DNA of 40,574 nt. It comes from a virus. The stretch is taken from positions 1 through 40,574 of the IMG/VR virus record IMGVR_UViG_3300029787_000117, one strand, 5' to 3'. Below the pieces are notes generated by a model. That model worked only from the letters and a program-made list of their open reading frames with translations, was not told where the DNA came from and did no database searches. Below, piece by piece: positions 1 through 40,574 of this stretch; position 1 is the first letter of the stretch, and the number at the start of each line of letters is the position of its first letter. Both the position numbers and the translations under genes were made by a program.

Positions 1-84
1 TTACACAAAGTTGTGATGGTTTAAAATTTACAAATGAAAGTTCAGCTAATTGGGATAGTGGAACATTTAAACTTTATGGACTCA
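1..84. repeat. Left copy of the terminal overlap
   Basis: Positions 1-84 align without gaps to 40491-40574, with mismatches only at positions 3 (A versus G) and 83 (C versus T). This is what a circular or terminally redundant assembly shows when the overlap is not trimmed. A very recent extra copy of the last tail gene would look the same. Confidence 0.85.
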
Positions 85-92
85 AAAAATAA
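1..92 (+). CDS. C-terminal end of the last tail-fibre-like gene (type C, second copy)
   Basis: The reading frame is open from position 3 to the TAA at 90-92 and encodes the end of a protein finishing KLYGLKK. It is the same frame as the gene truncated at the right edge (start 40064), and the shared 84 bases let the two be joined into one product of about 172 residues. The first complete codon here gives Thr where the right-end copy has Ala. The LYG ending is shared with the other small tail proteins of the array. Confidence 0.8.
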   Translation, partial: TQSCDGLKFTNESSANWDSGTFKLYGLKK

Positions 93-118: not shown

Positions 119-421
119 ATGGCAACAAAAGAAGAGCTACAAGCACAAGCAGATGCAGAGATAGAGGCAGCAAAGCCTCTTAATAAATCAGTTAATGGTG
201 TTGTATCAGAATTTTCTGATGCAGATTATGCACAAGCAAAAATTGATTTAGGAAATTCTAAATGGAATGAACAAGAGTTCGGTTACATTGCTGCAAGACA
301 AGCTGCTTACGCAAGTATAGGCGACCAACTAGACCAACAATATTGGGATGCAGTAAATGGTACTACTACTTGGAAAGATGCAATAGCACAAGTCAAATCT
401 GATAATCCAAAGCCTGAATAA
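119..421 (+). CDS. Tail-fibre-associated protein with RxAYxxxGDQLDxxYWD motif
   Basis: A 100-residue acidic cytosolic protein. The second half contains a tail-gene-associated motif seen in many phages: aromatic-basic AARQAAYASIGDQLDQQYWDA (residues about 58-78) followed by TTTWKDAIAQVKSDNPKP. Proteins with this GDQLD signature usually lie directly after the tail fibre genes and are often taken as fibre assembly or fibre-tip accessory proteins. That position is kept here, because the circle places it right behind the A-B-C array. The start is fixed by AGGAG at 109-113. Exact function is not known. Confidence 0.75.
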   Translation: MATKEELQAQADAEIEAAKPLNKSVNGVVSEFSDADYAQAKIDLGNSKWNEQEFGYIAARQAAYASIGDQLDQQYWDAVNGTTTWKDAIAQVKSDNPKPE

Positions 422-2725: not shown

Positions 2726-2927
2726 AAAGCTAGGTAATTGGATAGTAGAAGCAATAAAAGAAACATTGAACCTTAGTTGGACTTTAGTTGGATTAGTTAT
2801 AGCCACTCTTACACTTACCGGTTCAGCCCAACAAGTCACTGGTTTAGCCACTGTAATTACATTAGGTGTTTGGTTATTAACTATAGGTTTTAGAAAAGAA
2901 AAATCAAAAGGAGGTAAAAGCAAATGA
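2718..2927 (+). CDS. Two-segment membrane protein, holin candidate
   Basis: A 69-residue protein with an amphipathic N-terminus, two hydrophobic stretches (about residues 20-35 and 43-60) and a strongly basic tail (RKEKSKGGKSK). Size, two membrane helices and basic tail fit a class II holin. The ATG at 2718 is chosen because AGGAG lies 4 bases ahead; it overlaps the end of the acidic protein by 8 bases. The TGA overlaps the start of the lysin gene (ATGA), so the two are probably translated together. A second holin-like gene lies at 4246. Confidence 0.6.
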   Translation: MFKKLGNWIVEAIKETLNLSWTLVGLVIATLTLTGSAQQVTGLATVITLGVWLLTIGFRKEKSKGGKSK

Positions 2928-3508
2928 AACTACAGGTTGTTAGAACACAACTAGGAAAAGATGCAACTAATGGATTGTTGTTTATTAACGGTGTATTTGA
3001 ATGTTATACACTTGAAGACCAGTATCAAGTAGAAAAAGTTATGCACGAAACATGTATCCCTGAAGGTGAATATGAAATAAAGTTTAGAACTACAGGTGGT
3101 TTTCATACAAGATACTCTACAAGATATGGTACAGCACATCATGGTATGTTACATTTACAAGATGTACCCGGTTTTCAATACATTCTTATACATACAGGGA
3201 ATACAGATGAACATACAAGTGGTTGTTTAATTGTAGGTGACACACAACAAGATTTAGATGTAAATTATAATGGCATGGTAGGTAGCTCAACAGCAGCTTA
3301 TAAAAAGCTTTATCCTAAAGTAGCTAAAGAATTATTGATTGGAAATAAAGTTACTATACAATATTCCAAGATAAATTTAGACACACCATCTGTACAAGAA
3401 ATTGACAATACAGATATAAGTTGGGATGATATATCAGAAAAATTGTCAGAGATTAATGGTAATGTGCAAATTATTAATGCTAAACTTGATGGCAGGAATA
3501 TAACATGA
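2924..3508 (+). CDS. DUF5675-like protein, candidate peptidoglycan-cleaving enzyme
   Basis: A 194-residue protein. Its first 140 residues match the DUF5675 pattern from memory: a start of MKLQVVRTQ...GLLFINGVFECYTLED, then IPEGEYEI, then the VPGFQYILIHTGNTDEHTSGCLIVG block. H90, H97 and C101 within HxGNxxxHTxGC resemble the His/Cys arrangement of L,D-transpeptidase-like folds, so a role in cutting or remodelling peptidoglycan is often proposed. That role is not established. Residues after 150 form an acidic spacer and a coiled-coil-like end. GGAGG precedes the ATG, and flanking holin-like genes support a lysis function. Confidence 0.7.
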   Translation: MKLQVVRTQLGKDATNGLLFINGVFECYTLEDQYQVEKVMHETCIPEGEYEIKFRTTGGFHTRYSTRYGTAHHGMLHLQDVPGFQYILIHTGNTDEHTSGCLIVGDTQQDLDVNYNGMVGSSTAAYKKLYPKVAKELLIGNKVTIQYSKINLDTPSVQEIDNTDISWDDISEKLSEINGNVQIINAKLDGRNIT

Positions 3509-4245: not shown

Positions 4246-4527
4246 ATGTTAGAAAAAATTTCAAGAAGAAGAAACCAAGACGGCACGTTCAAGAAGGATG
4301 TGGGGTGGACCCCGTGGAATGAAGCATGGAGTTATAAAATGAGTGATTCACTTAAAGACATGCTAGAGAAGACCATATGGACGTTCATTGAAGCATTCAT
4401 AGGTGCATTAGTAGTTAGCCCATTAGTCGGTGTTGACGCAAATGCAGTTGAACTTGCAGCTATTGCAGGTGGTGGTGCAGCTCTAGTAGTCGTAAAAGAA
4501 TACGCAAAAAAACAGATAAGTAAATAA
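4246..4527 (+). CDS. Holin-like protein (r1t type)
   Basis: A 93-residue protein with a basic, Trp-containing N-terminus, a first membrane segment (TIWTFIEAFIGALVVSPLV), a short acidic turn (GVDANAVE), a second segment (LAAIAGGGAALVVVKEY) and a Lys-rich tail. This two-helix pattern with an Ala/Gly-rich second segment matches the r1t-like holins common in actinobacteriophages. It follows the previous stop directly and is coupled to the next gene by TAATG. Together with 2718-2927 it gives two holin-like genes in one lysis block. Confidence 0.7.
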   Translation: MLEKISRRRNQDGTFKKDVGWTPWNEAWSYKMSDSLKDMLEKTIWTFIEAFIGALVVSPLVGVDANAVELAAIAGGGAALVVVKEYAKKQISK

Positions 4528-4787
4528 TGAATTATCAATATGATGGTCTAGGCAATCAAGAACGTGCTAGGCGAATTAAACAGAATAAAGCTATGCTCAA
4601 GAAAGCACAGGCAAAGACTATGGAAAGGTCTAAAGTTATTAATGAACTTATGGCTATAAAACCTTTTACAATGAAAGCAGTTGCTTCTTTACCTAAGTTA
4701 GCTAGAGAAGCTAAGAAACAACGTAAAGGTGCAGCAAGAGTTGCTAAGCTACGTGTACAAGGTTACATGTTAGAGAAAGGAAAGTAA
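4527..4787 (+). CDS. Small basic helical protein
   Basis: An 86-residue protein, about one quarter Lys plus Arg and largely helical (ERARRIKQNKAMLKKAQAK, then KLAREAKKQRKGAARVAKL). It has no Cys and no membrane segment. It begins a run of tiny basic proteins that continues to 5966, each linked to the next by overlapping or nearly touching stop and start codons. Composition suggests nucleic-acid binding; function unknown. Confidence 0.6.
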   Translation: MNYQYDGLGNQERARRIKQNKAMLKKAQAKTMERSKVINELMAIKPFTMKAVASLPKLAREAKKQRKGAARVAKLRVQGYMLEKGK

Positions 4788-4834
4788 TGCCGGGTAAGAA
4801 AAAAAAGAAAAGAATGCCTAAAAGAGGGTACTAA
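4787..4834 (+). CDS. 15-residue Lys-rich micro-ORF
   Basis: The frame MPGKKKKKRMPKRGY sits between two clear genes; its ATG overlaps the previous stop (TAATG) and its own stop lies 2 bases before the next start. It shares composition with the surrounding basic proteins and may be translated, but at this size coding cannot be proven from one sequence. Confidence 0.35.
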   Translation: MPGKKKKKRMPKRGY

Positions 4835-4836
4835 TC

Positions 4837-5112
4837 ATGGCAATCGTTTATCGTGGAGAACGTTTTTCAGGTTATAATAAACCCAAAAGAACACCTAAAC
4901 ATAAGACTAAATCTCACGCAGTATTAGCAAAAAAAGGTGATAAGGTAAAGCTCATACGCTTTGGACAACAAGGTGTTAAAGGTGCAGGTAAAAACCCTAA
5001 GAGTAAAAAAGATAAAGCTCGTAAGAAAAGTTATTATGCAAGACACAATGCACAAGACAGAAATCCTGATAAATTGTCTGCACGTTATTGGTCGCATAAG
5101 GTAAAGTGGTAG
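4837..5112 (+). CDS. Conserved marine-phage basic protein (DUF6321-like)
   Basis: A 91-residue basic protein. The core KSHAVLAKKGDKVKLIRFGQQGVKGAGKNP, followed by KARKKSYYARHNAQ and the ending SARYWSHKVKW, is a conserved pattern I recall from many marine phages and annotated as DUF6321 or hypothetical. A beta-hairpin followed by a basic helix is likely. No biochemical function is known. It is the best-conserved-looking member of the microprotein cluster. Confidence 0.7.
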   Translation: MAIVYRGERFSGYNKPKRTPKHKTKSHAVLAKKGDKVKLIRFGQQGVKGAGKNPKSKKDKARKKSYYARHNAQDRNPDKLSARYWSHKVKW

Positions 5113-5113
5113 T

Positions 5114-5233
5114 ATGCCTAAAAAAAATGGATACTCAGAAAAACAAAAGAAGATTGCCCGTATAGCTGAACCAAGAGATAAGATTACAGGTGCAGATTTT
5201 AAAGCACTAAAGAAGCGTAAGAGAAGAAAATAA
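5114..5233 (+). CDS. 39-residue basic microprotein
   Basis: The product MPKKNGYSEKQKKIARIAEP continues with RDKITGADFKALKKRKRRK. The phrase YSxKQKKIAR...DKITGADFKxLK recurs in marine phage microproteins by recollection. It starts one base after the previous stop and ends in TAATG shared with the next gene. About 40 percent of residues are Lys or Arg. Role unknown. Confidence 0.6.
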   Translation: MPKKNGYSEKQKKIARIAEPRDKITGADFKALKKRKRRK

Positions 5234-5409
5234 TGGGTGCAGGAGCTAAACATTATTTCAAGAGTGGTAAAGAATACAAAGGTAAAACACATAGAATGAA
5301 TGGACAAATACACACAGGTGCAAGTCATTCTAAATCTTCAAAACAAGTTGTTCACTATGGTGCTTTGTCAAAGAGTGCAAAGATGAAAGCAAAGAAAGGT
5401 TGGAAGTAA
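5233..5409 (+). CDS. 58-residue Lys/His-rich microprotein
   Basis: Contains YKGKTHRMNGQIHTGASHSKSS, then a Gly-Ala-Leu-Ser-Lys turn and a Lys-rich end (KMKAKKGWK). The G-K-T-H...H-x-G-A-x-H-x-x-S arrangement is recurrent in phage microproteins of this kind. Five His among many Lys could allow metal or nucleic-acid contact. Coupled by TAATG on both sides. No known function. Confidence 0.6.
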   Translation: MGAGAKHYFKSGKEYKGKTHRMNGQIHTGASHSKSSKQVVHYGALSKSAKMKAKKGWK

Positions 5410-5528
5410 TGGCACAGGTATCATGGATGTGGGGTGGTAAGAGATACTACGGTACTCTTATACGTGAAACTAAAACACATAAGTTTGCAAGAACCAAGAA
5501 TGGCAAAGTAAAGAAGATTAAGAAGTAA
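5409..5528 (+). CDS. 39-residue basic beta-type microprotein
   Basis: The product begins MAQVSWMWGGKRYYGTLIRE and continues TKTHKFARTKNGKVKKIKK. The alternating aromatic/basic pattern suggests a small beta-hairpin, unlike the helical neighbours. TAATG overlaps join it to both neighbours. Unknown function. Confidence 0.55.
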   Translation: MAQVSWMWGGKRYYGTLIRETKTHKFARTKNGKVKKIKK

Positions 5529-5797
5529 TGGCTAAGAAACCTGCAAGAAAACCACTCAATGCTAAGACCAAAGCTACGCTACAAAAGAAAGCAAAGAACT
5601 CTAAATACACCTATGGACAACTTGCACAGGTATACAGAAGAGGACAGGGAGCTTATCTATCATCAGGTAGTAAGTCAGCTTCCATGGCTGCATGGGCTAT
5701 GGGGAGAGTTAATTCTTTTATTAGGGGTGGTCATTCTCAAGATAATGACATAAAAGGTGGGGGTAAGAAGAAGTCTAGTGGCAAAAAAAAGAAGTAA
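5528..5797 (+). CDS. DUF5824-like protein
   Basis: An 89-residue basic protein with the pattern LNAKTKATLQKKA...TYGQLAQVYRRGQGAYLSSGS...AAWAMGRVNSFIRGG, which I associate with DUF5824, a small family found in many phage genomes near structural or packaging genes. The conserved YRRGxGAY and WAxxRVNSF blocks are both present. The Lys-rich tail (KKKSSGKKKK) overlaps the next gene. No activity has been assigned to the family. Confidence 0.7.
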   Translation: MAKKPARKPLNAKTKATLQKKAKNSKYTYGQLAQVYRRGQGAYLSSGSKSASMAAWAMGRVNSFIRGGHSQDNDIKGGGKKKSSGKKKK

Positions 5798-5966
5798 GAA
5801 ACGTAAAGTTGCGTATCAGCATGGTGTTCCAAAGAAGTATTTACAGAATAAAAAGAACTCTAAACGTCAGGTTGCGTCTGAAATTAGAAGAACAGCTAAG
5901 GCTTACAAGCAAGGTAAAAAAATAAATCTTAAAGCCGTAGCTAAATCACGTGCGTCAAAAAAATAA
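5778..5966 (+). CDS. 62-residue Lys/Arg-rich protein
   Basis: Starts at a GTG inside the previous gene and reads AKKRSKKRKVAYQHGVPKKYL, then a helical basic region ending KAVAKSRASKK. A GTG 21 bases upstream (5757) is also possible. It is the last gene of the + strand microprotein run and meets the - strand SET gene end to end. Very basic; no recognised family. Confidence 0.55.
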   Translation: MAKKRSKKRKVAYQHGVPKKYLQNKKNSKRQVASEIRRTAKAYKQGKKINLKAVAKSRASKK

Positions 5967-8264: not shown

Positions 8265-9256
8265 TCCTTTGGTAGGTCTGATGAGTTAATCCACCATGAT
8301 TTACGCCACTTACCTGTATGACCTGAACACTCACTAGGTTCATTGGTGCCACAGGAAAAGTCAGGGCTTTTCTCATTACGTTTATTGAAACGATTATCAA
8401 ATACTTTGCCACTACAAAATGGGCATTTCAAATCATCTCTAACGCCTTGGTTGGCTACTGTTTTGTCCATTACTTCCCCCAACTCCATCTGAACTCTATC
8501 TATAAAGTCATCTCCTGTACTTGCAGGTATGATTTTAGTCAGTCCAATCTCTAGCTTAGCGAAGTAATCGTCCATTTGTTTGTTTGTCCACATGGATTTA
8601 TCAGGGTACTTCTTGATTTTTGCATAGTTATCTGCTAAATCTAAGGCATATTTCTTGACCTCGTCAGTTTTCCCGTCAAGTAATCTTGCAATAGTATCCT
8701 CAATTATCTTGAGTTTACCGTCAGTAGACTTAACGGGGTCACTAAAAGGTGCTTCATCCTCTGATATTTCATCCAATGGACGTGGTTCTACGGGTTCCGG
8801 TTTGGTTCTTACTTTCTGTGACTGTACTTGTGTACTTGAAGAGTAGACTGCATTCTGCATACTTTCTTCTTCACTCTCATCTGAACCTGACCATAGCTCA
8901 ACACCTAATCCGAAACGCATACAAGCACGTTTGAAAGCGTCACTCTCTGCGTCCTTTAGATTAGAACCGTCATTGAACTTGGGATTGTCAAGTTTTATGG
9001 TATCAACGTCACCACAACCCATGAAACTACCCATGTCTTCTATTTCAATGGTGCCGATTGCACCTACTATCCTCTTCACACCTTTGTGTGTACCATACAA
9101 TGGTTCAACTGACCATGAGTACTTAACACCACTATCACGTAGTCTTTCTACGTAGTGTGCATGAGGAACATAATCTCCGAACTTACCTTTAGGAGCTGAT
9201 TTTACTAGCTTCTTTGGGAACGGGGATAGCAATTTAATTGGCTTTTTTTCTGCCAT
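8252..9256 (-). CDS. Rad52-family single-strand annealing protein with zinc-ribbon tail
   Basis: A 334-residue protein. Residues 1-125 match the Rad52/Rad22-type annealing fold: YVPHAHYVERLRDSGVKYSW, a strand-rich AIGTIEIEDMGSFMGCGD, and the signature SNLKDAESDAFKRACMRFGLG. A long acidic, flexible middle follows (residues 130-190). The C-terminus carries CPFCSGKVFDNRF with later Cys residues (FSCG, SECSG), a probable zinc ribbon. Such proteins pair complementary single strands and support phage recombination. A clear AGAGAGGATA precedes the ATG. It leads an operon with nuclease-like genes downstream. Confidence 0.8.
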   Translation of the reverse strand: MAEKKPIKLLSPFPKKLVKSAPKGKFGDYVPHAHYVERLRDSGVKYSWSVEPLYGTHKGVKRIVGAIGTIEIEDMGSFMGCGDVDTIKLDNPKFNDGSNLKDAESDAFKRACMRFGLGVELWSGSDESEEESMQNAVYSSSTQVQSQKVRTKPEPVEPRPLDEISEDEAPFSDPVKSTDGKLKIIEDTIARLLDGKTDEVKKYALDLADNYAKIKKYPDKSMWTNKQMDDYFAKLEIGLTKIIPASTGDDFIDRVQMELGEVMDKTVANQGVRDDLKCPFCSGKVFDNRFNKRNEKSPDFSCGTNEPSECSGHTGKWRKSWWINSSDLPKEWNI

Positions 9257-9274
9257 AAATTATCCTCTCTATGT

Positions 9275-9314
9275 ATTTTGTTTTTTATTACAAAGTAATA
9301 ATAAAAAACAAAAT
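9275..9314. repeat. Perfect 16-bp AT-rich inverted repeat
   Basis: The arms ATTTTGTTTTTTATTA (9275-9290) and TAATAAAAAACAAAAT (9299-9314) are perfect complements around an 8-base loop. It lies between two - strand genes just ahead of the annealing protein. It could end transcription, act as an operator, or extrude as a cruciform at an origin. Perfect arms of this length are unlikely by chance even in AT-rich DNA. Confidence 0.7.
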
Positions 9315-9318
9315 AATT

Positions 9319-9471
9319 TTACTTGTCTAGGCGTAGAATACCACGCTGAAGATGTTGGAAAGATAGATTTCCTTCAGTATCTTTGAAGAACAACAACGGT
9401 GTGTCACCATTGTATTCTATCCCCACCAACGTCATAGATGGTTCTACATCCTTGACATTTATACTTGTCAT
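9319..9471 (-). CDS. 50-residue small protein
   Basis: Reads MTSINVKDVEPSMTLVGIEY, then NGDTPLLFFKDTEGNLSFQHLQRGILRLDK. It has a balanced composition and an alternating beta pattern, unlike random frames. It fills the gap between the phosphoesterase gene and the AT-rich inverted repeat on the same strand. Unknown function. Confidence 0.55.
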   Translation of the reverse strand: MTSINVKDVEPSMTLVGIEYNGDTPLLFFKDTEGNLSFQHLQRGILRLDK

Positions 9472-9486
9472 ATACTGTCCATTTTA

Positions 9487-10551
9487 CTATTCATCTTGTA
9501 GATTTACAAGGTATTCTGCTGTTACACCATACTTTGGTTTACAAAAGAGCAACCATTGGCATGGTCTACCCATACTTGCAAGTTGTTCTAATGCATAAGT
9601 ATTGTAACTTTCAGTACTTCCATTTACCCACAGTCGTATGTCGTTAACATACATTGTCGTAGGAGTATGAAAATGTCCTGCAATAGCGTAATCAAAGTCG
9701 GGCATTAGTCCATTACTAGCTAATGTTTTCCAACCCATTAGTTTTTTACCAAATCCATACCATGGGAACCCACCAAATCCTCTGATGTTATCACCATGCC
9801 ACAGAAAAAATTTACATTTTTCACCTAAGTCTGCAATATCAAACCAATGATTATCGCCTGTACTATCAGGTATTGTGAACTTAATTCTCTTTTCTTTAGC
9901 GTATATCATGTCCATTATCTTGCCTAGCATACGGTCTGCGTTGCTATCGGGATGATAGTTCTTTCTGTTTCTACCACCTAAATGTCCATGATTACCTATT
10001 ACCCAATGTACATCTACTTCTTTGAAGTTAGCTAACAATATGTCAAAGAACTGTGTCAATATACGTGGTGCGTCTACTGTCACTTGACTGTATAACGAAC
10101 TGTCTATTGTATGTTCTTGTCCGGGAAATATTAATTCACCCTCTATAATGTCACCAACAGCAAATACTGAAATCTTCGTGATGTTTGTCGCCTCGCGTTG
10201 TATGTTTGTAAGGTCAACAATCTTATTAGCGTATCGTATGACACGTTCTTCTGCTATCTGCGTATTGTATGTAGGTGTAACCTTTGCAAGTTGTACATCA
10301 GAGAGTATCGCACAGGCTATTTCCTTTCCTTTCTTCTTTATCGGGGGAAGATTTGGGGTCGGGATTTTACCTGCACGATAGGTGCTAAGACCTGTTTTTA
10401 CAGCCTCATAAACTGCCTCAACCATTCTCTCTGTCTTGTTTTTAGCTTTGTCTAACTGTCTTAGTAAACTAAGGTTAGCCTTTTCTAGCTCAAGTATGCG
10501 TTCGCTTTCTGCCTCTGCTAAAAGTTTAGAAATCTTATCTTCATCAACCAT
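9487..10551 (-). CDS. Calcineurin-like metallophosphoesterase
   Basis: A 354-residue protein. After a coiled-coil N-terminus (KANLSLLRQLDKAKNKTE) it shows the ordered metallophosphoesterase motifs: SDVQLAK (degenerate D-x-H, with Gln in the usual His place), VGDIIEGE (GDxx), a WVIGNHGHLGG (GNH), a FLWHGDN and AGHFHTP (GHxH). These bind two metal ions and hydrolyse phosphodiesters. Phage members near recombination genes may act as SbcD-like nucleases or on nucleotides. Start taken at MVDEDK; a Met 18 bases upstream is possible. The Gln in motif I resembles known variants and need not abolish activity. Confidence 0.8.
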   Translation of the reverse strand: MVDEDKISKLLAEAESERILELEKANLSLLRQLDKAKNKTERMVEAVYEAVKTGLSTYRAGKIPTPNLPPIKKKGKEIACAILSDVQLAKVTPTYNTQIAEERVIRYANKIVDLTNIQREATNITKISVFAVGDIIEGELIFPGQEHTIDSSLYSQVTVDAPRILTQFFDILLANFKEVDVHWVIGNHGHLGGRNRKNYHPDSNADRMLGKIMDMIYAKEKRIKFTIPDSTGDNHWFDIADLGEKCKFFLWHGDNIRGFGGFPWYGFGKKLMGWKTLASNGLMPDFDYAIAGHFHTPTTMYVNDIRLWVNGSTESYNTYALEQLASMGRPCQWLLFCKPKYGVTAEYLVNLQDE

Positions 10552-36109: not shown

Positions 36110-36673
36110 ATGACAGCACAACAATTAAATTACAGTAACTTTTTTGAAACAACATTAGCTGCAATAGTTGGAGCATCAGATAATAACTTAACATTAGCAG
36201 TAGCTCCTACATCAAATGGTAGTTCTGCTATATCACCACCTTTTTATTTAGTAATTGACCCTGATAACGAAACAAATAAAGAAGTTGTATTAGTAACAGC
36301 AGCTTCAGGTACAAATATGTCTACAGTAACAAGAGATGTAGAAGGTAGACATTCACCTAACCCATCACATACAAGTGGTACAACAGTACGTATGGCTGTA
36401 GTTAGTCAAATGTTTGAAGATTTACATGACCAATTAGTTAGTGGAACAATTACATTTACAAACAAAACTTTTGATGCAGAAGGTACAGGTAATGCTTTAT
36501 CTAATGTTGATGTAGCTAATCTTAAATCAGGAGTTTTAGATACAGACATAAGTTCTGTTAGTGGTAGTGACGATACTCTTGCATCTGCAAAAGCAATTAA
36601 AACATATATAGATGCACAAAATGCAGCACAAAGTTCAGGTGCTAGTTTAGGATTAGTAATAGCTTTATCATGA
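36110..36673 (+). CDS. Tail-fibre base/adaptor-like protein
   Basis: A 187-residue protein. N-terminal half: QQLNYSNFFETTLAAIVGAS and TFYLVIDPDNETNKEVVLVT-like strands (positions around 40-65), a GTNMSTVTRDVEGRHSP turn. C-terminal half: GTITFTNKTFDAEGTGNALS, VDVANLKSGVLDTDISSVSG, then a helix (TLASAKAIKTYIDAQ) as in proteins that attach fibre segments. It opens the fibre gene run. Typical of tail-fibre bases in short-tailed phages. Confidence 0.65.
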   Translation: MTAQQLNYSNFFETTLAAIVGASDNNLTLAVAPTSNGSSAISPPFYLVIDPDNETNKEVVLVTAASGTNMSTVTRDVEGRHSPNPSHTSGTTVRMAVVSQMFEDLHDQLVSGTITFTNKTFDAEGTGNALSNVDVANLKSGVLDTDISSVSGSDDTLASAKAIKTYIDAQNAAQSSGASLGLVIALS

Positions 36674-36867
36674 CAATTTTAATTACCATGAAAGAAGGTG
36701 GTGGATTAAATATTGATACTATTGGTAATCTACCAATAGATGAAGATATAGATTTACTTCCTGATGCAGGTGGCAATTTATCATTTGCATTTAGAGTAAT
36801 AATGAACGCAATTTCTAATACAAGTAGTGCAAGTTCTCAAGCTCGTGCTATAGTATTAGGAGTATAG
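36670..36867 (+). CDS. 65-residue tail-run protein
   Basis: Starts by ATGA overlap. Reads MTILITMKEGGGLNIDTIGN, then IDLLPDAGGNLSFAFRVIMNA. Mostly beta with a Ser-rich end. Possibly a small head-fibre-linking protein. Unassigned. Confidence 0.5.
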   Translation: MTILITMKEGGGLNIDTIGNLPIDEDIDLLPDAGGNLSFAFRVIMNAISNTSSASSQARAIVLGV

Positions 36868-36886: not shown

Positions 36887-37219
36887 ATGGCAGAAACATT
36901 TAAGTCAAATCAGATAGCAATAACAACGTCTAATCAAGACATTGTTCCTGCAATCGCTGCTTCAACTACAGCTATAGTTCTTTCAATTAGAGCAACAAAC
37001 GTAGATGGAACAAATGACGCAACAGTTGATGTACAAGTAGTAGATACAGGTGGTTCTCCTACGGCATACATAGCTAAAACAATGTCAGTACCTGCAGATA
37101 CATCATTAGAGTTAGCAGGTCAATCTAAATTAGTTTTAGAAACAGGCGATAAGATACAAGGTTTAGCATCAGCTGATAATGACGTAGAAATATTTGTAAG
37201 TTATTTAGAGATAACATAG
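36887..37219 (+). CDS. Small beta-sandwich-like tail protein
   Basis: A 110-residue protein, all-beta: FKSNQIAITTSNQDIVPAIA, VLSIRATNVDGTNDATVDVQ, SLELAGQSKLVLETGDKIQG and ADNDVEIFVSYLEIT. The order of strands resembles small baseplate/fibre-tip subunits seen in marine phages. GGAGA precedes the ATG. It comes just before the A-B-C array, perhaps its anchor. Confidence 0.6.
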   Translation: MAETFKSNQIAITTSNQDIVPAIAASTTAIVLSIRATNVDGTNDATVDVQVVDTGGSPTAYIAKTMSVPADTSLELAGQSKLVLETGDKIQGLASADNDVEIFVSYLEIT

Positions 37220-37228
37220 GAGTAACAA

Positions 37229-37864
37229 ATGTCATTTGGATATTTGGGAGATACTTCTACCAAGATAAAACAACAAGTTAAAAATCAAGGTGTAATATCT
37301 ATTTCTGAGGCTTATGAATTAGAAAAAGCAGACCAATTTAGTGGTAGTTTAGAATTAATAGAAACTGTAACAATATCAAGTGCAACTGCTTCTGTAGATT
37401 TTACTAGCATTAAAGGAGATATATATGAATCTCATTTTCTTACTGCAACAAATATTCAACCTGTTACAGATGGAGCAATTTTAAGAATAAGATTTAGTAA
37501 TGATGGTGGTTCTTCATTTGAATCAAGTAATTACGAAATGGGTAGACAGTATCAAGATTCCTCAGGTACAAATGGAACTTCTGATAGCACTTCAATAGGT
37601 TATATAGAATTTTCAGTAAACATAGGTTCAAGTACAAATGAGAGTGGTGGTGCATCTGCTTATTTTCACAGGTTAAACAACGCATCTTATTATAGTGTTG
37701 TTGCATTAGAGTCAACTGGACTAAACGCATCAGGTGTTTATTTAAACCATTTTGGTGGTGGCACATATAAAGTTGCTGAAAAAGTTGATGGTATTAGGCT
37801 AGTTATGTCAAGTGGAGATATTGATGCAGGAGTGTATAAATTGTATGGAATTAAAGAGCAATAA
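37229..37864 (+). CDS. Tail-fibre-like protein, array type A, copy 1
   Basis: A 211-residue protein. It begins SFGYLGDTSTKIKQQVKNQG, then an N-terminal linker with SEAYELEKADQFSGSLELIE, followed by a beta domain with an ending shared through the array (GVYKLYGIKEQ). Copy 2 (38911) aligns with it over the full length: same length class, ELxxxxxISSATxSVDFT start of the beta domain, and IGSxTNEx then YxxxxN. Likely receptor-binding or fibre-tip subunit. GGAGT lies 8 bases ahead of the ATG. Confidence 0.72.
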   Translation: MSFGYLGDTSTKIKQQVKNQGVISISEAYELEKADQFSGSLELIETVTISSATASVDFTSIKGDIYESHFLTATNIQPVTDGAILRIRFSNDGGSSFESSNYEMGRQYQDSSGTNGTSDSTSIGYIEFSVNIGSSTNESGGASAYFHRLNNASYYSVVALESTGLNASGVYLNHFGGGTYKVAEKVDGIRLVMSSGDIDAGVYKLYGIKEQ

Positions 37865-38400
37865 TGGGTAATAGTTTAAGATTTTTAAAACAAGTAAGTT
37901 TTAGTGATGTTACTGCAGGAGATGTTACTGATGTTTTTTCATCAGATTTTGATATATATAAAATTGTTTCAACAGGCTATGATGAAACAAGTGGAGATGC
38001 CAATAGAGCAAACATTAGATTTATAAATAGTTCAGGTTCTATTGACAGCTCATCATCGTATGACCATGCTTCATTAGCAATAGAGGCAGCAGCAAGTGGT
38101 GCTTATCCAACAGTAAAATCTAGTTCAGCAGACCACATTAACTTTGTTTTATATGATAATGGACAATCTGGAGCATCTAGTTCTGGACAAATTTATGTAT
38201 TTAATCCATTTAATTCTTCTTCTTATACATTTGTAACTTTTTCAGAATCACATTTTCAGCAAGGATATGGAGCATCTACAGAAAAAGGTGTTGGTACTTA
38301 TAAAGTACAAAGTTCTTTAACTGGTTTTAGATTATATTCAAGTGCTAGTGGTAATTTTAATGTAAGAATTAATGTTTATGGAATAAGGATAGATTCATAA
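37864..38400 (+). CDS. Tail-fibre-like protein, array type B, copy 1
   Basis: A 178-residue beta protein starting MGNSLRFLKQVSFSDVTAGD. It matches the copy at 39549 (NSLRFLKQV versus TNFQFLDKI, YEQYNIFL-like first strands, GDxxxANIRFI/GYIGLRFID, SSYDHA versus SEYSHA). It ends VYGIRIDS, the array's closing pattern. TAATG joins it to A and to C. Ser-rich exterior suits a secreted tip domain. Confidence 0.72.
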   Translation: MGNSLRFLKQVSFSDVTAGDVTDVFSSDFDIYKIVSTGYDETSGDANRANIRFINSSGSIDSSSSYDHASLAIEAAASGAYPTVKSSSADHINFVLYDNGQSGASSSGQIYVFNPFNSSSYTFVTFSESHFQQGYGASTEKGVGTYKVQSSLTGFRLYSSASGNFNVRINVYGIRIDS

Positions 38401-38906
38401 TGGGATTAGCACAAATATCAACAGATACAATATCATCTGCAGTATCTAGTGTAACCTTAACAGGCATAGATAGTGATGATGTTTATGTGGTTGCTTTTAG
38501 TAATGTTGGTGTAAATACTGATAGTTCTTATGTTTTATGTCAGGTTGGCACTACAGGTGGAGCAAGTACTACAGATTATGCAAGAGCTGAAAAAGTATTA
38601 AAGTCAAATACAGATTTTCAAAACAATAGTTCTAATTCAACTATTGAATGTCAGTTGTGTTATTTTATTGGAAATGCAACTAATGAAAAAGGAAATGGAA
38701 TTATCTATTTATATAATATGTACAATGCAAGTGAATATTCTTTTGGAACTGTTGAAACTGTTTATATGAATGCTAGTGATAATGGTTGGGGATTAGCAGG
38801 TGGTTTTGTTCATAAAGTAGCAGAACAAAATGATAGATTTGTATTTAAAAATAGTGGAAGTAATACTTTAACAAGTGGAACATTTACATTGTATAAGGTA
38901 GTGTAG
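38400..38906 (+). CDS. Tail-fibre-like protein, array type C, copy 1
   Basis: A 168-residue beta protein. It begins MGLAQISTDTISSAVSSVTL, with TLTGIDSDDVYVVAFSNVG matching TLTGIDSTYDIYVCHFDNV of the copy at 40064. Cys residues (CQVGT, CQLCYF) are unusual in this array. The ending is TFTLYKVV, a shortened version of LYG. It closes the first module; 4 untranslated bases follow before the second A gene. Confidence 0.72.
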   Translation: MGLAQISTDTISSAVSSVTLTGIDSDDVYVVAFSNVGVNTDSSYVLCQVGTTGGASTTDYARAEKVLKSNTDFQNNSSNSTIECQLCYFIGNATNEKGNGIIYLYNMYNASEYSFGTVETVYMNASDNGWGLAGGFVHKVAEQNDRFVFKNSGSNTLTSGTFTLYKVV

Positions 38907-38910
38907 AAAT

Positions 38911-39549
38911 ATGAGTTATATACCTAAAGATGCAGTAACACAATCCTTCAGAAGTAACAAGGGTGTGCTTACACCTAATCAAATTATTGAATTAGACAAT
39001 GAAAATAAATTTACAAAGTATGGACAGCTAGAACTGTTACTTACAAATGCTAGTATAAGTAGTGCATCAACAGTAGATTTTACTGGGCTTGATACTTATG
39101 GAAATTTTGATGTTTTCTTTCTTACTTTTAATGATTTAACTATTGCAAATGACAACAAAAGAATAGGTTTAGAGTTGTTAAGTAATGGTACTGCAAGTGG
39201 TACTAGCTATCATGCAGCAGCATCAGTTATGGAAACAGATGGAACTTTTACTGCTACAAAAAGCACATCTCTTCCTGGATTACGAATAACTGACAATATA
39301 GGAAGTGCTACAAATGAAAATGCAAATGGATATATACATATATATAATGCTTTAGACTCACAAAAATTTACAAATATTACTTATCATTCTACATTTGTTA
39401 ATTCATCAGGAGTTGCGGGTTTTGAATTTGGTAGTGGTGTTCACCCATTATCACGATTTGATAATGGATTAAGATTTCACCCTGACATAAATGGTAGTTC
39501 TACTTTTACAGGTGGTAGTTTTAGTTTGTATGGAATAAGGAATTATTAA
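38911..39549 (+). CDS. Tail-fibre-like protein, array type A, copy 2
   Basis: A 212-residue protein. The N-terminal linker (SYIPKDAVTQSFRSNKGVLT, then QIIELDNENKFTKYGQLEL) differs from copy 1 at nearly every position yet keeps the order. The beta domain from ASISSASTVDFTGLDT onward is closer. It ends SFSLYGIRNY. The linker may attach to the virion and the domain may bind host. Diverged enough to be an old duplication. Confidence 0.72.
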   Translation: MSYIPKDAVTQSFRSNKGVLTPNQIIELDNENKFTKYGQLELLLTNASISSASTVDFTGLDTYGNFDVFFLTFNDLTIANDNKRIGLELLSNGTASGTSYHAAASVMETDGTFTATKSTSLPGLRITDNIGSATNENANGYIHIYNALDSQKFTNITYHSTFVNSSGVAGFEFGSGVHPLSRFDNGLRFHPDINGSSTFTGGSFSLYGIRNY

Positions 39550-40064
39550 TGGCTACTAACTTTCAATTCTTAGATAAAATATCCTCTGGTGGAAGAGTAA
39601 CTAATTTTGATTTGCAAAATATTTTTGATAAAGGCTACGAACAATATAATATTTTTTTAAATGTAAATGATGCATCAGGTGATGGTTACATAGGTTTAAG
39701 ATTTATTGATGCCTCAGATGCAGTAATTACAGGTTCTGAATACAGTCATGCAGGAAGAGAGTTTAAATCAAACGCAGCTTTTGATAGCACTTGGAATACT
39801 GAAAATGCCTCACAAATAGCACCTATAATGACAGGTGGTGCTACAGCTACAGGTGGAGGAGCATTAGTTAGAATATTTAATGCAGATAATTCAAGTGGTT
39901 TTACTTTTGTTACTTGTCAATCATCAATGACAGAAGGCACACCTAATTTAAGAGGAACTAAAACTATAGGTGTACATGAAACTGCAGAACAAATTACAGG
40001 TGTAAGATTTCTAGGTGTTTCACATAGTTACGATACTACTGCAACTATATATGGAGTTAAATAA
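39549..40064 (+). CDS. Tail-fibre-like protein, array type B, copy 2
   Basis: A 171-residue beta protein starting MATNFQFLDKISSGGRVTNF and ending ATIYGVK. It mirrors the 37864 gene, with Gly-rich TGGATATGGGALVRIFNADN replacing the longer Ser-rich loop of copy 1. The main length change is in that loop, where binding surfaces often vary. TAATG couples it to the A gene before and the C gene after. Confidence 0.72.
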   Translation: MATNFQFLDKISSGGRVTNFDLQNIFDKGYEQYNIFLNVNDASGDGYIGLRFIDASDAVITGSEYSHAGREFKSNAAFDSTWNTENASQIAPIMTGGATATGGGALVRIFNADNSSGFTFVTCQSSMTEGTPNLRGTKTIGVHETAEQITGVRFLGVSHSYDTTATIYGVK

Positions 40065-40574
40065 TGGCAGGTAGTTTAATTTTAATAAATACAGTAGAGT
40101 GTGCAGGAGTTTCTACTGCAACATTAACTGGTATTGACAGCACTTATGATATTTATGTATGTCATTTTGATAATGTAAAAACAGGAACAGATAATAAAAA
40201 TATTGGTGTTCAAGTTACAGTAAGTGGAAGTGCTGATACATCTGCTAACTATGACCAAGCATTTGCTTTTTTTAGGACTGATACATCATATACAAATGTT
40301 AGTGCTGAAAATGGAACTTCAGTAACAATTACTGCGTCAGCAGGTAATGACGCAGGTGCAGGAAGTAATGGAACTCTTTATTTGTATAATTTTAACAATT
40401 CAGGTGAGTTTTCTTTTGTAACAGTAGAACAAGTATATAGAAACATATCACCAAATACTATGGGATATCAAGGGGGTTTTGTTAATACTGTTGCACAAAG
40501 TTGTGATGGTTTAAAATTTACAAATGAAAGTTCAGCTAATTGGGATAGTGGAACATTTAAACTTTATGGACTTA
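40064..40574 (+). CDS. Tail-fibre-like protein, array type C, copy 2 (cut by the window end)
   Basis: The frame is open to the window end and reads MAGSLILINTVECAGVSTAT, then GIDSTYDIYVCHFDNVKTGT and a Ser/Thr/Asn-rich beta body. 170 codons are visible; joining to positions 3-92 adds the end KLYGLKK. It starts by TAATG. Together with 38400 it forms the type C pair. Alignment of its last 84 bases to the window start shows one Ala/Thr difference, which suggests mixed strains in the sample. Confidence 0.75.
   Translation, partial: MAGSLILINTVECAGVSTATLTGIDSTYDIYVCHFDNVKTGTDNKNIGVQVTVSGSADTSANYDQAFAFFRTDTSYTNVSAENGTSVTITASAGNDAGAGSNGTLYLYNFNNSGEFSFVTVEQVYRNISPNTMGYQGGFVNTVAQSCDGLKFTNESSANWDSGTFKLYGL
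40491..40574. repeat. Right copy of the terminal overlap
   Basis: Matches 1-84 with two differences (see the left copy). It lies inside the last tail gene, so the contig was opened in mid-gene, as expected for a circular map rather than a natural end. Confidence 0.85.

Follow-up and report, generated by a model that had tools for sequence, protein, structure and literature searches.

Tandem sets of three paralogous tail-fibre-tip genes in a marine phage: a probable heterotrimeric receptor-binding tip

The window analysed here, a stretch of viral DNA 40,574 nucleotides in length, carries six consecutive genes in the order A-B-C-A-B-C, all on the + strand, which run from position 37229 through the map junction to base 92. 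We propose that each A-B-C set probably specifies one heterotrimeric receptor-binding tip anchored by its A protein, with the phage bearing two such appendages. A preliminary description of this DNA had suggested a heteromeric fibre tip with two sets, and this notion fits all of the comparative evidence, from which we infer the trimer. The genes and their neighbours are as follows.

36110..36673, + strand: 187-aa conserved gene, the start of the variable appendage locus in relatives
36670..36867, + strand: 65-aa protein opening MKEGG..LGID..IDEDIDLLP
36887..37219, + strand: 110-aa phrog_1276-like protein, directly upstream of A1
37229..37864, + strand: A1, 211 aa, N-terminal anchor and beta-sandwich tip domain (AlphaFold2, tree)
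37229..37348, + strand: A1 anchor segment, residues 1-40, kept across phages and also present on glycine-rich fibres of relatives
37864..38400, + strand: B1, 178 aa, tip domain only; its start overlaps the A1 stop (TAATG)
38400..38906, + strand: C1, 168 aa, tip domain only; its start overlaps the B1 stop; C-terminal LYKVV
38911..39549, + strand: A2, 212 aa, second anchor type and tip domain; 4-base gap after C1
39549..40064, + strand: B2, 171 aa, tip domain only
40064..40574, + strand: C2, first part, running on through the circular junction (172 aa overall)
1..92, + strand: C2, end; bases 1-84 duplicate 40491-40574 with two mismatches
119..421, + strand: 100-aa gene, phrog_9114, directly 3' of the ABC array in relatives

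Inside each set, the stop and start of neighbouring genes overlap by one base, and only the four bases between C1 and A2 separate the sets. The first 84 bases of the window recur at its end with two mismatches, so the contig closes and C2 is a protein of 172 aa ending at base 92. When A1 was used as a query against the whole contig, exactly these six places were matched. The phrog_1276-like gene accompanies the 40-aa anchors in relatives and is missing where A opens MAPLG or MPLGAAR; its product is a candidate docking partner of the A anchor. The opening of the 65-aa protein is fused to A in one relative (L037), and this protein may be part of the attachment region, while the phrog_9114 product is a candidate assembly factor. 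Just 3' of the array lies a 654-aa ORF (761-2725), extremely acidic and Glu/Val-rich, which has no PHROG match and keeps its place in many relatives. A DUF5675 protein (2924-3508; E 1.4e-30), found in the same gene order in relatives, is possibly lysis-related, and a series of small lysine-rich ORFs (4527-5966) stands 3' of a lysis-like gene. A tRNA search found none.

All six array proteins are homologous; every pair outscored shuffled sequence, by 3.5 sd at the least (B1/C1). By this measure B1 and B2 (16.7 sd) and C1 and C2 (30.9 sd) are mutual best partners. A1 is closest to A2 (21.5 sd), yet A2 and C1 are equally close (22.0 sd), leaving the A pair ambiguous from the six sequences alone. 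Because percent identity by itself also fails to pair the genes (33% for A1/B1 versus 30% for A1/A2), trees were used. In a tree of 87 proteins including relatives, many of whose branches are long, the A, B and C proteins of the window's phage group each formed one clade (96/63, 100/99 and 99/98, respectively). In a separate count over 53 triplets of this group, the position label changed only 3 times. These results, with the six genes lying where the preliminary description had placed them, bear out its claim that a three-gene module was duplicated whole. The expected clustering of like-positioned genes was seen for B and C from the six proteins alone, and for A only when the relatives were included. 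First and second copies fall into largely separate subclades inside A, B and C, from which the module duplication is old. Of the single sets, L054 and L198 combine A2-like, B1-like and C2-like genes and so are hybrids, and all genes of L068 are of the second type.

Copy-specific signatures are found at the C-termini (GVKQI in A1, LRVDS in B1, LYKVV in C1, YGVK in B2 and YGLKK in C2). The LYG-type close ascribed to nearly all of these proteins holds for five of the six but not for C1, whose LYKVV end is typical of first-set C proteins in relatives. Divergence had been placed mainly in loops and N-terminal linkers; instead it is general, with identities of 26-40% within pairs, and the A anchor is better kept than the tip. 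A1 (E 4.7e-14, 22-206) and C2 (E 6.3e-10, 24-205) match the phrog_14820 profile of 206 positions directly, whereas B1, C1, A2 and B2 do not and were joined to it through an iterated profile. A Pfam scan of the six array genes, taken up to E 1, returned nothing.

AlphaFold2 models were made of A1 and B1 as monomers. B1 was modelled as almost all beta (pLDDT 87.5, pTM 0.85), and A1 as all-beta from residue 41, with low confidence for residues 1-21 (pLDDT 86.1, pTM 0.78). The B and C proteins lack an N-terminal extension; their first residues lie at or close to the first strand. Searches of the PDB by fold and by sequence yielded no convincing relative (E of the best hits about 1e-3, with TM under 0.4 when scaled to query length), which makes trimer formation by the array domain itself presumptive. 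In a viral structure library, 151 predicted proteins matched at E<=0.001, and the annotations of several read side tail fibre or tail fibre. The pelagiphage HTVC034P has, beside its triplet, an annotated tail fibre, gp39, with a phrog_18673 tail fibre match at residues 1-122 and the array tip domain at residues 182-356, by which the array domain counts as a tail-fibre C-terminal tip. The view of these genes as tail-fibre-like is thus upheld in the narrower sense of tip-like, both by gp39 and by the anchor that is common to glycine-rich fibres. A link to PF07484 or C1q proteins was considered and rejected, as no Pfam match supported it.

Among A, B and C, only A carries the anchor of about 40 residues, and the segments of A1 and A2 are related but distinct. 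Mean identity across phages is higher for the anchor than for the tip (0.55 versus 0.38 for A1; 0.49 versus 0.36 for A2). Profiles of the anchor segments also match the glycine-rich (PF21722) fibres of L055, L083, L080 and L206 (E 4e-6 to 2.5e-11), and in L083 and L206 the glycine-rich fibre occupies slot one and is followed by one ABC set. For A proteins opening MAPLG or MPLGAAR, glycine-rich counterparts with a similar opening occur in L022, L046, L074 and L077, the matches being short and weak. As the anchor is common to A and to single-gene fibres, we take A to be the subunit that is anchored, with an ABC set standing in for a single-gene fibre. Glycine-rich fibres share with A the locus and the N-terminal anchor types, but they are encoded by one gene, end in a glycine-rich tip and usually have a phrog_7759 partner in place of B and C.

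Four relatives that have no ABC set (L040, L042, L055 and L064) carry extra genes 3' of the glycine-rich fibre. These include a 370-387 aa protein opening GKGTAG, a flavin enzyme that is perhaps halogenase-like, and several proteins of 230-245 aa with a common P.WYKN-type motif, probably oxygenase-like; they are candidates for modification of the fibre or the host surface. The fibre locus of L064 also holds four consecutive short paralogues (8671-9876; 84-115 aa) with IRSIQ or IKSIQ near the N-terminus, a further tandem family of small size.

To place the array among relatives, 79 related contigs were gathered with the major capsid protein, and later scans added arrays. Single proteins served as queries in the collection scans, since alignments of A and of C offered no sufficiently conserved stretch; C1 of L049 matched itself only. 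In these relatives the variable appendage locus sits 3' of a 656-aa gene and the 187-aa gene. Surveyed for module copy number, it shows that the triplet recurs: there is one ABC set in L018-L021, L037, L054, L063 and L068, there are two sets in L011, L034, L038, L049, L053 and L079, and in other relatives a glycine-rich fibre stands at the head of a run of unrelated genes. The count of array lengths took in only short single-domain genes from related and pelagiphage contigs and left out arrays truncated at a contig end; of the 79 non-redundant complete arrays, 71 have three (48) or six (23) genes. Deviating cases are an array broken into three pieces (L084), a five-gene array (L092), two lone proteins of 230 aa, a further single from a pelagiphage and L009. 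Under simple null models a multiple of three is expected at a frequency of about 0.24 to 0.33, so that chance is excluded, although the arrays are related, their counts are therefore non-independent and binomial figures overstate the case. Within the phage group of the window, complete arrays most often have six genes in this order (22 of 36 when counted without redundancy). The five-gene array of L092 (1416-4184) has apparently lost A1, and in the 1.4 kb that precede it no ORF on the + strand reaches 60 aa.

The same family also occurs three in a row in pelagiphages (HTVC010P gp30-32, HTVC019P gp45-47 and HTVC034P gp37-35). The HTVC010P proteins match phrog_14820, a family without an assigned function, with E below 1e-98, and the triplets are annotated only as hypothetical proteins. 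They resemble the arrays described here in protein family, in their three consecutive genes with mostly overlapping starts, and in having tail-fibre and tail-fibre-assembly neighbours. They differ in that their first gene has no 40-aa anchor and that they make up a separate, distant clade (100/100), within which c is again a single clade. Trees joining pelagiphage a with A, b with B or c with C were rejected (AU p 6e-4, 0.008 and 1e-6, respectively). From the separate clade and these rejections, the three-gene state seemingly arose twice: judging by sequence, triplication seems to have occurred independently in pelagiphages, giving at least two origins, a pattern that early gene conversion could mimic. 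Three pelagiphage contigs (L124, L138 and L192) contain a further type of triplet, with genes of about 216-225 aa, and in L124 and L192 it precedes the usual triplet, so that two sets stand together in pelagiphages too.

Divergence among the 22 six-gene arrays is correlated within a set (r 0.48-0.64) and far less between sets (0.04-0.18), even for the adjacent genes C1 and A2 (0.05). The A1B1C1/A2B2C2 split was the best of ten, also with outliers and anchors removed; after removal of five outlier arrays, the set-linkage difference was 0.28, and bootstrapping placed it between -0.007 and 0.443. Pairs of phages show exchange at two scales. L106 and L110 have the first set in common (97, 98 and 89%) but not the second (47-54%), whereas L106 and L102 have only C1 in common (93%), with A1 and B1 at 43-47%; in DNA comparison, identity shifts near gene borders. 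Single-subunit swaps of this kind mean that the subunits are not strictly co-inherited. Subunits are exchanged singly between phages inside a position class, by which tips would diversify combinatorially.

Fibre tips are usually three-fold homotrimers. Exactly three paralogues per array, two apparent origins, a single anchored member, overlapping genes and position-specific evolution are together the trace expected of a heterotrimer. We suggest that: the three paralogues, with their common beta-sandwich tip domain, would assemble 1:1:1 in place of the usual homotrimer; the A anchor of about 40 residues would attach the trimer to the virion; B and C would be held through the trimer interface and supply two different binding faces; two sets with two anchor types would give two different appendages made simultaneously; and gene-by-gene exchange within a position class would change receptor specificity combinatorially. 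More broadly, we give even chances to the proposition that tailed phages infecting abundant marine bacteria evolved heterotrimeric three-paralogue tips independently at least twice, with faces that reassort, with the tip duplicated in one lineage and with anchors exchangeable with those of homomeric fibres.

Several other explanations were weighed against the heterotrimer. Each gene might form a homotrimeric tip of its own, giving an arsenal of three or six separate receptor binders; the fold is indeed a C-terminal tip on ordinary fibres, which are normally homotrimers, and individual genes are swapped between phages. We consider this unlikely, as an arsenal does not demand multiples of three, as triplets seem to have evolved twice, and as B and C possess no anchor of their own and begin at or near the first strand. 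The anchor on A only and the fixed operon order would also suit a serial stack of homotrimers or monomers, with A at the base and with B and C as adhesins at the far end, in the manner of gp37 and gp38 of T-even phages. However, all three proteins have the same domain and size without a special linker or partner region, and two independent origins with exactly three paralogues are not what a stack predicts, making it quite improbable. Many capsids are decorated by exposed beta-sandwich proteins. That the array encodes such outer capsid or head decorations of an immunoglobulin-like kind, rather than tail appendages, is very improbable, given that the locus 3' of the 656-aa and 187-aa genes holds fibre genes in relatives, that the anchor is common to glycine-rich fibres and that the tip of an annotated tail fibre is the same domain.

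The preliminary description went further and saw in the two sets alternatives chosen by a switch, a counterpart to fibre-switching systems. Two diverged module copies side by side do invite this idea, yet it finds no foothold here and we regard it as scarcely credible. The sets lie head-to-tail on one strand, with genes overlapping or nearly touching; the longest inverted repeat flanking or spanning them is 44 nt at 70%; promoter-like sites at the sets are not above chance; no recombinase or reverse transcriptase was found near them among the ORFs scanned, which were part of all ORFs; and the six-gene order is the most frequent complete form in the window's phage group. The two sets are better read as two appendages that are presumably co-expressed.

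The closest precedent for the heterotrimer is the tail of the DSLV2 virophage, in which three consecutive paralogous tail proteins co-purify as a 1:1:1 heterotrimer and group by position, not by virus (PMC12724248). The array genes share with it both the three consecutive paralogues and relatedness by position. DSLV2 differs in being a virophage and not a tailed phage, in having one set only and a gp37-like collar domain (PF07484) instead of the array beta-sandwich, and exchange of anchors with other fibres is not described there. The array genes gave no match to PF07484 up to E 1, so that, by analogy, the array may work like the DSLV2 tail without being a member of its family. Tips of the T4 gp37 and T7 gp17 type likewise place a C-terminal receptor-binding tip on a virion-anchored protein, but they are homotrimers of one gene, whereas each set of the array consists of three genes, only the first of which encodes an anchor. 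Our search of the open-access literature turned up no description of such three-gene tips for tailed phages.

In a comparison of capsid proteins, the nearest isolates were phages of mycobacterial, propionibacterial and similar kinds, and the sole genome match is an Actinomycetota MAG that could itself be a phage contig placed in a bin; on these grounds the host probably belongs to the marine Actinobacteria. It is almost always assumed that fibre tips are homotrimers, and host-range predictors seek one receptor-binding gene. The predictions of the heterotrimer model, namely its stoichiometry and interchangeable subunits, are testable in cultured pelagiphages. If the model is true, the host range of abundant marine phages would hinge on reassortable three-gene combinations.
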